Origin: a virus
Length of the DNA: 27,246 nucleotides
Reading direction: 5' to 3' (one strand)
Virus record (IMG/VR): IMGVR_UViG_3300048590_000200
Location: 1-27,246 of that record
Part shown: one piece after another, positions 17,418-19,758 of the stretch
Layout: every line of letters begins with the position of its first letter
Numbering within the stretch: position 1 is the first letter of the stretch
The notes under the pieces: model-generated
Seen by the model: the letters and a program-made list of their open reading frames with translations, nothing else
The model's database searches: none
Told to the model about the DNA's origin: nothing
Made by a program: the position numbers and the translations under genes

Positions 17418-17630
17418 TTATGAACTGTCGAACCTGCGCCACACGCCGCTGGAATCCGGCGTGATCGGCACCACGCGGCTGACCGTGCACAGCAGGCGAT
17501 AAGCTCCCTGCCGCGTGATGCACATGTCATCCGCAACGTCGCGCACCGTCACCCCGTCCCCATGCGCCAGCCGCCAGACAACACTCGCCGCCTTCTCCTG
17601 CGGTGTGTAATCGCTCTCGCTCTCGCTCAT
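17418..17630 (-). CDS. Small helix-turn-helix protein
   Basis: 70 residues, ATG at 17630, 3 bases after the preceding stop. Residues ~27-60 (GVTVRDVADDMCITRQGAYR and following LLCTVSRVVPI) form a plausible winged or simple HTH of the MarR/Lrp-like kind used by small DNA-binding proteins. It sits between the gpG-like and protease genes, a place where Mu-like operons do not usually carry a regulator, and just before the intrinsic terminator. It could regulate transcription of the capsid genes or act in anti-termination. Both are inferences. Confidence 0.7.
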   Translation of the reverse strand: MSESESDYTPQEKAASVVWRLAHGDGVTVRDVADDMCITRQGAYRLLCTVSRVVPITPDSSGVWRRFDSS

Positions 17631-17633
17631 TCG

Positions 17634-18077
17634 TCACCCATCCAGCCAGCTCGCCAACTTCTCGGCCATGTTCTCGAAGATGCGCACAATACCCTCTTGC
17701 GCCTTCTCCGCCACATCCTTCATCGTCCACCACGGCGCGGATTGCAGCACCTTGCGCGCCTGCGTGCCCTCGCCGATGACATACTGCGCATAATAGACGC
17801 GCGTGCCGATGCGCCCCTCATAGTTGCCCGGCCCGATGCGCTTAACTGTGTACACCTCGGCCTTGCCGCCGTCCGTGCCAATAGAGCGGCCGAGCGTGCC
17901 GGTGCGCGCGTAGCTGCTCATCGGATTCTGTGACGGATACTCCGGCACGCTTCCCTGCATGTGCAGCATCGCCTTGTCCATCGCCGTCTGCAATTCATCA
18001 TCCAGCCGCTGCGGATATCGCTCAAACCGCTGGAACAAATCCGGCGGGTTCGTCTTAATCGTCATGCTAACCCGCAT
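17634..18077 (-). CDS. gpG/HK97 gp10-like virion morphogenesis protein
   Basis: 147 residues from the ATG at 18077, preceded by GGGGGA; an in-frame ATG at 18065 is an alternative. The sequence is helical near the N-terminus (DLFQRFERYPQRLDDELQTA) and has the family's central beta part: RTGTLGRSIGTDGGKAEVYT, then a YEGRIGTRVYYAQYVIGEGT segment. The YAxYxxxGT motif is typical of HK97 gp10-like neck proteins. Mu gpG occupies the same position between gpF and the protease. It overlaps the end of the MuF gene by 11 bases. Confidence 0.8.
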   Translation of the reverse strand: MRVSMTIKTNPPDLFQRFERYPQRLDDELQTAMDKAMLHMQGSVPEYPSQNPMSSYARTGTLGRSIGTDGGKAEVYTVKRIGPGNYEGRIGTRVYYAQYVIGEGTQARKVLQSAPWWTMKDVAEKAQEGIVRIFENMAEKLASWLDG

Positions 18078-19758
18078 TGTTCCCCCACTTCTGCCGCTCC
18101 AACTCGGCCGGGTCATACGCCTCAAAAATGACCGGCTGAAGCCAGCACCGGCAATTATGTGTTATAATTCCGTTGACGAAATATAACTCGTGGGGGGCCA
18201 CATGGAGATTGTAAACATGGTCGCTAAAATCAAACTTTCGAACCTTGACGATCTGGTAATTCGCTATCAATCCGGGGAAGCCATCTCCGATCTCGCCAAC
18301 GATTGGGGGGTAAGCCCCCAAACCATCGACCGCAACTTGCGCGCCTTGGGTGTTCATGTCAGCAGGATCGGACATCAGGCAAAAACAATCCCTGACATGG
18401 AGTCGTTTGTTGAGCGCTATCTGTCCGGCGAATCTATCAACGCTCTCGCCGATGAAGCCGGTGTTGGCAGATACGCATTCGCCAGCAACTTGCGCAAACA
18501 TGGCGTGGCTGTTCGCGGCCAGTCTGAGGCCGAGGCTGCTAAATGGGAGCGCATGACGCCGAGCCAACGGCGGCGGCAAGTGAGGGCCGCACACGAGGCC
18601 ACCAAGGGGCGTTCCATTCCTCTTAAGTCCAAGGTGCGCCGTGCTAAAACTCTTGAGCGCACCCTCGTTCATTCCACGCCCGAAGAGTTGTGGTTCGCCG
18701 ACGTACTCCGCGACAAGGGCCTCCTTATCACGCCGCAGAAGGCCGTCCGTGAATACAATGTCGATATCGCCACTCATGTTCCGCCCGTCGCCGTGGAAAT
18801 CTTCGGGGGCAACTGGCACAGACTCAGAGACGCCGAAACGTTCAACGAGCGTTGCATAAAGCTCTTCAATCTTGGTTGGCACGTGCTGATCATCTGGACT
18901 AACAAGGCCCGCTATCCGATGAACACTGTCGCTGCCGACTACGTGGCCGCCTTCTGTCAATTCGCCGGCAGCGAGCCAGCCAGCAGGCGTGAGTATCGGG
19001 TGATTCTCGGTAACGGTGAAGCTGCGCCCACCAGTAAGACTTATCTCAACGACCGTGCCACTGTAGAAGGCTTTGGTGGCCGCTTTGATTCTTCCGGGAG
19101 CCATTACTTCATTACCGGGTAGCACACAGCCCACATGCGCAGGCGGCCGTCTTATCGACTGCGGATTACGCAGCGCGCGCTCCAGCTCCGGATTCTGCGC
19201 CAGCATCTCCGGTGTAAACGTCCAGCCGCCGGAGATGTCCACAATCGTGCCGTTCAGCGCGCCGCAGATAGGACACACCCGCTCATCCTTCGCCGTCATC
19301 CAGCGAAGGCCGTTAACGATGCCGCTGGCCTTCCACGCCATGTGGTTGCCCTCAGAGTACACCCGCGTCACCTCAGTGACGGCAATCCTCTTGGCGCGTT
19401 CCTTGCCGTAGATAGGCGCGAGCCGCTCTTGCAGCACCGGCAGCGCCTGCCCCTCGCGCATCCAGAACTCAATCTCCTCCACCGTCTGCCGCCGCGAAAC
19501 CTCGTTCACCTGATTCAGCGTGTACATCTGGCCGTCACCCATGCCCGGCAGCGGATCAACCGCCAGATAGCGCCTCATCCATTCCAGCGCCTCCCGGTTG
19601 AACACATCCCAATCCACCAGCACATCAAGCCCCGGCGGCATGAGATTCGCGCCCTGGGCGCCGCCCATCAGCAGCACCTCCATCACCGGCTCCGTCATCT
19701 CCTGCGCAAACAACTGCCGCTGCAAACGCCACCAGGCCATGTCAGACCATCTAGGCAT
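18067..19758 (-). CDS. MuF/SPP1 gp7-like head morphogenesis protein, interrupted by an intein
   Basis: 563 residues, ATG at 19758 overlapping the portal stop by 8 bases. The host protein is residues 1-210 plus 536-563, so the spliced product is 238 residues. It carries the minor head protein signature WMTAKDERVCPICGALNGTI (153-172), then PPAHVG joined to CRCWLQPV, which rebuilds the conserved H-x-x-C-R-C motif. An intein fills residues 211-535. Helical elements precede (ERLAPIYGKERAKRIAVTEV, with VYSEGNHMAW). MuF-type proteins are present in a few copies in the procapsid and are often ejected with DNA. Splicing is needed to give the normal protein. The frame is open throughout, so the intein should be translated with the host. 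Confidence 0.9.
   Translation of the reverse strand: MPRWSDMAWWRLQRQLFAQEMTEPVMEVLLMGGAQGANLMPPGLDVLVDWDVFNREALEWMRRYLAVDPLPGMGDGQMYTLNQVNEVSRRQTVEEIEFWMREGQALPVLQERLAPIYGKERAKRIAVTEVTRVYSEGNHMAWKASGIVNGLRWMTAKDERVCPICGALNGTIVDISGGWTFTPEMLAQNPELERALRNPQSIRRPPAHVGCVLPGNEVMAPGRIKAATKAFYSGTVVEISLTGGRSFTVTENHPILTPAGWLAAGELTEGGHVVGSDSVHRIAGLVSPDDQHVPTKIEELYATLVERFGVSESVPVAPEDFHGDGRNMSGDIDIVFTDGLLRRDKEALVAEYVGEPQLFGRGMNEGALKSFSTAHLGLKRNGTPLGGLVCGPHLPPPLARRHALPFSSLGLRLAANSHAMFAQVAGECVSANTGFIGESVDRFAGQIALNKRLHVRDCFCLMSDPADMNTQGAQVAVDGLGAYPPIVGEIGDGFPGLIANYQIVKVRKFDFSDHVYNLHVAPHELYFVNGIITHNCRCWLQPVIFEAYDPAELERQKWGNNAG
18160..18168 (+). promoter_or_regulatory. Extended -10 promoter of the antisense endonuclease, inside intein block G
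   Basis: TGTTATAAT is an exact extended -10 (TGnTATAAT). On the opposite strand the same nine bases are codons 531-533 (Ile-Ile-Thr) of the intein splice block. A start near 18175 would give a short leader before ATG 18202, which follows GGGGGG, or ATG 18217, which follows GGAG at 9-base spacing. No good -35 element is seen. Confidence 0.6.
18202..19122 (+). CDS. Vsr-like/EDxHD homing endonuclease encoded antisense within the intein
   Basis: 306 residues from ATG 18202; GTG 18190 and ATG 18217 are alternatives. The N-terminus has two helix-turn-helix repeats, about 13-56 (NLDDLVIRYQSGEAISDLAN) and 65-106 (ESFVERYLSGESINALADEA), followed by a basic linker (RRRQVRAAHE). The catalytic part, about 157-255, has the Vsr/DUF559 layout: TPEELWFADVL, Gln in ITPQKAV, EYNVDIA, VAVEIFGGNWH, ERCIKLFNLGWHVLIIW. 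The acidic residues and the W-x-H/GNWH region fit the PD-(D/E)XK-like EDxHD family, which includes I-Bth0305I-type homing enzymes. The stop at 19120-19122 is 3 bases from the first intein codon. All HEN codons align in phase with intein codons. It probably cuts intein-free alleles. Confidence 0.9.
   Translation: MEIVNMVAKIKLSNLDDLVIRYQSGEAISDLANDWGVSPQTIDRNLRALGVHVSRIGHQAKTIPDMESFVERYLSGESINALADEAGVGRYAFASNLRKHGVAVRGQSEAEAAKWERMTPSQRRRQVRAAHEATKGRSIPLKSKVRRAKTLERTLVHSTPEELWFADVLRDKGLLITPQKAVREYNVDIATHVPPVAVEIFGGNWHRLRDAETFNERCIKLFNLGWHVLIIWTNKARYPMNTVAADYVAAFCQFAGSEPASRREYRVILGNGEAAPTSKTYLNDRATVEGFGGRFDSSGSHYFITG

Follow-up and report, generated by a model that had tools for sequence, protein, structure and literature searches.

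How can the gene for a protein-splicing element and the gene for the enzyme that would mobilize it occupy the same piece of phage DNA on opposite strands? The question is raised by the IMG/VR virus record IMGVR_UViG_3300048590_000200, of which positions 1 to 27,246 (27,246 nucleotides, nt; hereafter the window) were analyzed. On its minus strand, a MuF-type minor head protein gene is interrupted by an intein, and the plus strand of the intein DNA encodes a nuclease. The arrangement very probably represents a mobile class 1 intein whose putative homing endonuclease is a separate antisense gene, filling nearly the whole of the intein DNA in a coinciding codon register. The features concerned are as follows.

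18067-19758, minus strand: MuF-type minor head protein gene interrupted by an intein, 563 amino acids including the intein (Pfam, TIGR and PHROG matches)
18154-19128, minus strand: intein of 325 amino acids, predicted HINT fold plus unstructured linker, between ...PPAHVG and CRCW... (blocks read from the sequence)
18316-18741, minus strand: intein linker, residues ~130-271, no confident fold, with codon constraint that appears to follow the plus strand
18217-19122, plus strand: putative antisense homing endonuclease gene, 301 amino acids and TAG, with two helix-turn-helix (HTH) units, a helical linker, a Vsr/EDxHD-like nuclease and a low-confidence C-terminal tail (Pfam, profiles, AlphaFold2, recurring start)
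18736-18804, plus strand: predicted nuclease core QKAVREYNVDIA...VAVE (Y180, N181, D183, A192, E194; column counts), opposite the intein motif EDFHGDG...DIDIV
18163-18168, plus strand: putative -10 hexamer TATAAT, extended (TG at 18160-18161), in block G codons (sequence, synonymous shuffle)
18204-18207, plus strand: candidate Shine-Dalgarno sequence GGAG, 9 nt ahead of ATG 18217, opposite block F codons (sequence, relatives)
18217-18219, plus strand: predicted start codon ATG, complementary to CAT, which encodes the His of block F, D-H-V-Y-N-L (sequence, relatives)

The Intein and Its Host Gene

The open reading frame (ORF) at 18067-19758 of the minus strand matches Phage_Mu_F (Pfam) and TIGR01641, both above cut-off, and PHROG 15127 (2.1e-26). 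The latter, a "head protein" family, also matches the intein portion within unrelated host proteins (a dCMP deaminase and a protease); because these matches fall on the intein part of unrelated hosts, the family seems to be built partly on inteins.

A preliminary description of the window had placed a complete intein with its conserved blocks and a Cys+1 on this strand, and such an intein is indeed found within the MuF frame. It reads Cys1, TENH in block B, DHVYNL in block F and GIITHN in block G, followed by Cys+1, and it lies in one uninterrupted ORF rather than in the two genes of a split intein. Intein_splicing (Pfam) is matched just below its cut-off (3.6e-8), intein_Cterm above its cut-off and intein_Nterm below. 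Cys1 is invariant in 33 aligned inteins, an invariance that is partly by choice because the rows were picked by readable borders starting with Cys. The TxxH motif is present as TENH, with T40 at 90% or more and H43 invariant in the alignment (A6). The terminal Asn and nucleophilic +1 residue appear as HN/C in the window and as N325 in A6, in inteins whose borders had been set by that very feature; borders were defined in 44 loci using hand-chosen N-terminal strings. The AlphaFold2 model (33 rows) places the HINT parts at residues 1 to ~128 and ~285-325, with residues 130-271 below a predicted local distance difference test (pLDDT) score of 50, and Foldseek relates the model to the RecA mini-intein 5i0a (probability 1.00, E 1.3e-3). 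Judged by motifs and predicted fold, this is a complete class 1 intein, presumably able to splice.

The Predicted Antisense Enzyme

The enzyme ORF lies wholly within the intein DNA on the strand opposite to the intein, and is thus not an endonuclease fused in the same frame. Two details given in the preliminary description hold exactly: the stop codon (TAG 19120-19122) falls 3 bases short of the first intein codon (19126-19128), and the codons of the two strands coincide, enzyme residue m (counted from GTG 18190) pairing with MuF residue 524-m. The proposed length and start have to be revised. A product of 306 residues, which corresponds to ATG 18202, had been described, with its start 46 bases inside the intein end; ATG 18217, giving 301 residues and lying 63 bases inside, is the best-supported start because a Shine-Dalgarno sequence and start recur at the same place in relatives.

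In Pfam, the enzyme matches HTH_7 (7.8e-8) and HTH_58 above their cut-offs, and MTES_1575 (1.6e-5) and DUF559 below theirs. Searched with hmmsearch, a profile of 75 homologues finds the HTH protein 2lvs first, then 3hrl (4.7e-6) and I-Bth0305I, 3r3p (5.6e-6); a 63-row profile finds 3hrl (2.9e-5) and 3r3p (1.8e-4). Family searches with both proteins, a check that had been suggested, therefore return intein matches on one strand and Vsr-like and HTH matches on the other. The AlphaFold2 model (63 rows; pLDDT 87.5) shows two helical HTH regions, a helical linker and an alpha/beta nuclease, with residues 279-301 below 50, and Foldseek matches the model to 1vsr, 3r3p and 3hrl, each with probability 1.00 and E 0.012-0.067. 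The column counts in the 63 rows are 59 for E157, 63 for N181, 63 for D183, 62 for E194 and 48 for H201. The EDxHD catalytic motif includes an H and a last D; E157, D183, E194 and H201 are its candidate positions here. The Vsr-like fold and the two HTH units first proposed for this protein therefore stand, and the enzyme is predicted to be a two-HTH nuclease of the Vsr/I-Bth0305I type.

A Shared Layout in Relatives

With the plus-strand protein as query, tblastn matched 130 phage records, among them phages of Salmonella, Gordonia, Pseudomonas, Klebsiella, Escherichia, Vibrio, Acinetobacter and others. Carriers of the element include the Kagunavirus phages Snoke and fEg-Eco06 and, in Gordonia terrae, Vivi2. 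Two plasmid records also match the enzyme, one of them from Ca. Promineifilum breve at 43.5% identity (L008, NZ_LN890657.1, "plasmid III"). In that record, terminase, major capsid, protease and head genes stand in phage order next to the element, and it looks like a phage or phage-plasmid. A scan of IMG/VR with a 29-base motif yielded at least 120 stretches, loci that are biased toward intact nuclease cores. Applied to a set with one genome per species, the motif returned 29 stretches, of which 8 have both enzyme and intein, 2 a weak or partial enzyme only and 19 neither; the records with both include Acidobacteria, Gammaproteobacteria, Firmicutes, Peregrinibacteria, Gordonia and Microbacterium labels, some of them metagenome-assembled genomes.

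Altogether 196 loci were examined, most of them fetched on account of the enzyme; 166 match the enzyme profile, 165 the intein profile and 164 both. Among 154 distinct homologous regions (some loci being cut by contig ends), 151 have an open antisense frame in the same register throughout the matched part, so the search for the same antisense gene in relatives, recommended at the outset, reveals a widespread family. The three exceptions are a free-standing gene (L032), a gene in another register (L128) and a partial match without an intein (L170). In L128 (9633-12407), a weak enzyme homologue (67 bits) lies antisense to an intein-bearing MuF gene and may represent an independent invasion. In L126 (690-1860), the enzyme gene is apparently split into two overlapping frames, possibly a decayed copy. 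Where intein borders were set, the enzyme gene lies entirely within the intein DNA in 42 of 44 loci, and its start lies 60 or 63 nt inside the intein end in every one of the 44, all of which had been picked with a readable His in block F.

MuF is not the only host gene: the element lies in a dCMP deaminase gene in L007 and in a head maturation protease gene in L048. The L007 gene (616-1968, Virus Rctr197k) is labelled a head morphogenesis protein; its extein is the dCMP deaminase, which carries the intein and antisense enzyme of this family, and the label may stem from the intein part. In L047 and L114, the intein lies within the MuF domain (before profile position ~68), at a site earlier than that of the window. 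Of 24 annotated records, including two plasmid records whose gene tables are incomplete, just Salmonella phage PK2 and the Acinetobacter phage with the free-standing copy list the enzyme gene.

Putative Start Signals Inside Blocks F and G

An own promoter had been proposed for the enzyme, and a synonymous-shuffle test of codons, in which the protein is kept, supports this idea. Window positions 18160-18168 read TGTTATAAT, and this -10 stretch has a shuffle rank of 0.02. The start signals were tested across the 102 of 153 loci that match a block F pattern requiring His or Arg at the key position; because of this design the constancy of the His is not itself a result, and the choice of codon given His is. 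The His codon of 87 distinct start contexts reads CAT (ATG on the antisense strand) 73 times and CAC (GTG on that strand) 14 times, compared with 515 CAT and 790 CAC among the other His codons of these genes (Fisher 2e-16). Leu in block F, whose codon supplies the GAG of the Shine-Dalgarno sequence, is written CTC in 70 of 81 cases versus 30% of the Leu codons in those genes, and a 6-nt Shine-Dalgarno match precedes 39 of the 87 starts versus 0.8% of all ATG/GTG. Scored with an approximate -10 matrix, the stretch before the start has a median shuffle rank of 0.022, with 64% of 91 loci below 0.05; nine control segments (C-extein, linker and N-extein, 60-91 loci each) have 0-7% below 0.05 and medians of 0.41-0.73, the extein controls deviating in the opposite direction. 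In 79 representatives sharing at most 60% amino acid identity, the results are similar (CAT versus CAC 66 to 13, CTC 68/74, median -10 rank 0.025). Outside this test are 51 loci: 26 in which no block F was matched, and 25 with a block-F-like stretch of mixed residues, of which one has His and a few are doubtful. Taken as a pattern of codon usage, the predicted start codon, Shine-Dalgarno sequence and -10 element lie in blocks F-G beyond what codon choice would lead one to expect.

Stop-Codon Avoidance and a Free-Standing Copy

Every TTA, CTA or TCA in the enzyme frame is a stop in the intein frame. The avoidance of these codons that was originally reported is borne out: in the window there are 0 among the 42 Leu and Ser codons of the matched region. 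Over 132 enzyme genes, 590 would be expected and 14 are observed, the expectation being drawn from long non-overlapping ORFs of the same stretch rather than curated genes; 2 of 134 distinct enzyme genes were omitted for too few reference codons. Twelve of the 14 sit in Acinetobacter phage P1068 (L032), where 11.4 are expected, and the remaining two in L138, where 0.0 are expected. In the 19 loci below 50% GC, 185 are expected and 12 observed, all of them in the free-standing L032. In P1068 (L032:2507-3400), the enzyme gene stands free of any intein and is convergent with an uninterrupted MuF gene, with a 7-nt overlap; two further Acinetobacter records hold the same protein. Since the forbidden codons occur in P1068 at the expected level, avoidance goes with the overlap and is absent when the overlap is absent.

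Selection on Both Strands

In this register, the third codon position of the enzyme is the first of the intein and vice versa. Changes were counted in 20 disjoint pairs of 60-97% nt identity, with residues numbered from GTG 18190. At enzyme positions 1, 2 and 3, they number 129, 85 and 204 in residues 121-144 (linker), an enzyme-like pattern, and 93, 35 and 50 in residues 1-24 (block F) and 94, 40 and 49 in residues 289-312 (block A), both intein-like; in residues 241-288, they are even across positions. Pair by pair, enzyme third positions change more than first positions in 19 pairs versus 1 in the linker, and the direction is reversed on the block F side (0 versus 14, four equal and two without data). 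A separate test in three identity bands gave the same directions. Purifying selection on both strands, which had been named as a check, has thus left signs in both frames, each in its own segments. In the intein linker (130-271), where the model has no confident fold, the constraint appears to come from the enzyme alone.

The nuclease core (enzyme residues ~177-250) faces intein residues ~55-128. Enzyme third positions change in 521 of 1896 codons (0.275 per codon) at residues 193-288 versus 795 of 1891 (0.42) in the linker at residues 73-168, and both proteins seem constrained in the core region. The overlap therefore does not seem limited to a dispensable linker. An enzyme-less relative bears on this point. 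In L158, the CRC motif is likewise preceded by an intein, here of 161 amino acids, which lacks both the linker and an antisense frame (five stops); it keeps EDFHGDG, encoded with a codon choice under which the antisense reading would no longer contain the catalytic Glu. The idea that EDFHGDG is a mere shadow of the nuclease core was dropped in favor of double constraint because L158 keeps the motif and because enzyme third positions vary less there than in the linker, a reading that rests partly on this one enzyme-less intein.

A related intein without an antisense frame had been named as an observation that would speak against the proposed overlap. It was encountered once, in L158; because L158 also lacks the linker, it fits loss of the enzyme better than a refutation. 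Its block F reads GQVYNL in place of GHVYNL, with Gln replacing the start His, and this single case behaves as expected if the block F His serves the start codon. When further enzyme-less inteins were sought, none apart from L158 could be clearly assigned to the family: L197 proved to be the contig of L158 again, L198 and L199 match the intein only weakly (17 bits) and the enzyme not at all, and L192, L194 and L196 contain both intein and enzyme. A further search returned no record covering 80% of the query.

Empty Sites and Probable Mobility

Two IMG/VR contigs (L001 and L002) hold a MuF gene without the intein, in which the intein-flanking bases are contiguous. On the approach to the site, L001 matches the window at 99.3% over 5197 nt, then at 88.8% over 446 nt and finally at 96.8% over the adjoining 62 nt; beyond the site, 2162 nt match at 97.5%. 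For L002, identity is 85-87%. Per 100 nt, identity to L001 is 0.73-0.96 in 17550-18149, 0.94-1.0 before it and 0.93-1.0 on the other side of the site. The raised divergence beside the insertion is suggestive of a conversion tract, no more. The element is also patchily present among Jerseyvirus-type phages, where 348 records match the PK2 MuF gene and 58 hold at least 80% of the long gene; among the 60 matches listed, most of those below that threshold cover no more than the two exteins (~52-57%). SETP13 has an intact 1044-nt gene where PK2 has one of 1860.

Weighing the Alternatives

Genes of high GC content in this register often have long open antisense frames, and the enzyme could in principle be only the mirror image of a conserved intein, whose sense conservation would then pass for antisense conservation. 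The window does contain many long plus-strand ORFs opposite other genes, and EDFHGDG is conserved in the sense frame and retained in the enzyme-less intein. A mirror image, however, would have no HTH and nuclease homology of its own, would not have its most variable wobble positions in the linker, would not avoid forbidden codons in AT-rich loci as well, and would account neither for start signals in excess of codon-choice expectation nor for a free-standing homologue. Given codon positions, stop avoidance, start-signal codons and structure, this explanation was rejected as exceedingly improbable. The converse, that only the endonuclease is functional and the sense reading is a merely stop-free shadow, as in hidden out-of-frame insertions without splicing, draws on the linker, which has neither a confident fold nor visible sense constraint; for residues 130-271 it was accepted. 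It was rejected for the splicing blocks, where Cys1, TxxH and HN/C are kept across the aligned inteins, the HINT fold is confident at both ends, sense wobble positions are most variable at the intein ends and L158 retains a compact intein without the enzyme; as an account of the whole element, it is very unlikely. The antisense protein may instead be real and no longer homing, acting through its HTH units and nuclease on gene expression or in the exclusion of related phages. Long conservation, a divergence that tracks that of the exteins and the two HTH units would suit such a domesticated role, yet the nuclease residues are kept, and exact intein-free alleles in close relatives and the patchy Jerseyvirus-type presence look like those of an active homing element, which makes domestication unlikely. 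It is conceivable, if rather doubtful, that the arrangement has already been described, for example in a 2025 preprint on actinobacteriophage inteins with "non-canonical architecture." It is cited for overlapping frames in actinobacteriophages (PMC11855218), and several Gordonia phages carry the element; on the other side, no antisense endonuclease gene in an intein was found in the literature, as partly covered through titles and abstract openings.

A mobile intein with a separate antisense homing gene remains the preferred explanation, and several results weigh against it. Foldseek gave no match to the enzyme model with E at or below 0.001. A generic sigma-70 scan, which also requires a -35 element, did not report the antisense promoter in the window, and two in-gene control segments of the shuffle test deviate weakly in the same direction as the start region (Kolmogorov-Smirnov p 0.03-0.04). 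Block F was not found in 26 of 153 loci, and about 24 of the ~127 loci with a readable block F lack the His, their starts lying elsewhere. The sign test for the blocks A/B segment is not significant (5 versus 12, three equal, p 0.14), nor are several segments in the closest identity band. The enzyme-less intein is known from the single case of L158. Lastly, enzyme distance correlates with extein distance (r 0.44) at least as well as with intein distance (r 0.34; 43 loci); because the enzyme tracks the extein, long-range moves are probably not frequent, and the deep spread looks lineage-bound.

A Proposed Mechanism

Sense transcription would yield a MuF precursor from which the intein then splices itself out. 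An antisense promoter and ribosome-binding site within the block G/F codons, favored by codon choice, would give a separate enzyme mRNA. The enzyme would cut intein-free MuF genes at the conserved HPxC/RC motif, and repair would copy the element in; this step is suggested by the enzyme family, the empty sites and the patchy distribution. The intein linker would be largely the antisense reading of the enzyme gene, staying open because the enzyme avoids TTA, CTA and TCA, and the nuclease core and tail would overlap sequence that the intein also needs, with both proteins constrained there.

On balance, we favor the broader view that these elements form a distinct class of mobile inteins, distributed among the tailed phages and prophages of bacteria from several phyla, whose splicing protein and homing enzyme are opposite-strand genes of the same DNA. 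Their cores would be double-coded; the promoter, ribosome-binding site and start of the enzyme would be written into blocks F and G; and the His common in block F would owe its retention to the start codon and not to splicing. Conservation of an intein residue may, on this view, have a cause that lies outside the intein.

Comparison With Known Systems

In existing descriptions, a mobile intein is one polypeptide that links splicing to homing; the layout reported here separates the expression of the two functions and ties their sequences together base by base. The family provides a large natural data set of long and old opposite-strand double coding, and its built-in contrasts (a free-standing enzyme, an enzyme-less intein and intein-free alleles) make the origin and cost of overlapping genes testable. 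It also bears on annotation, the antisense gene being mostly unlisted in the 24 annotated records examined.

In the fractured genes reportedly described by Dassa in 2009, free-standing Vsr-like endonuclease genes are said to lie between the two genes of a split intein. The likeness lies in the pairing of an intein with an unfused endonuclease gene; in those cases the intein is reportedly split in two, whereas here one continuous intein and host frame runs antisense through the endonuclease gene.

In mobile class 1 inteins such as PI-SceI and TliVMA, the endonuclease domain is in frame (PMC8966425). The element resembles them in its HINT domain, in the nesting of endonuclease sequence between the two halves and in its insertion in a conserved host motif; unlike theirs, its endonuclease is not a domain of the same polypeptide and strand but a separate antisense gene that also reads through the splicing blocks (PMC8966425). 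The EDxHD enzymes have been reviewed, with I-Bth0305I placed among phage-derived group I intron enzymes (PMC3943268). The predicted enzyme shares with I-Bth0305I (3r3p) the nuclease fold, sequence similarity in the catalytic region and separate DNA-binding modules, and differs in being carried antisense in an intein rather than by a group I intron (PMC3943268). In the ShiLan phage, an insertion contains a hidden out-of-frame HNH endonuclease, and its authors detected no intein or splicing (PMC11855218). Both insertions are in frame and conceal a homing gene in another frame, but the ShiLan enzyme is of the HNH type, has no detectable ribosome-binding site in that account and uses the third frame rather than the antisense strand (PMC11855218). 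Nuclear group I introns of Didymium contain antisense homing endonuclease genes (PMC9548176). There, too, the enzyme is antisense to the host gene within a splicing element, and a promoter of its own has been proposed; the Didymium element, however, is an RNA intron with the enzyme gene in a peripheral paired segment, where the opposite strand need not code for protein (PMC9548176).

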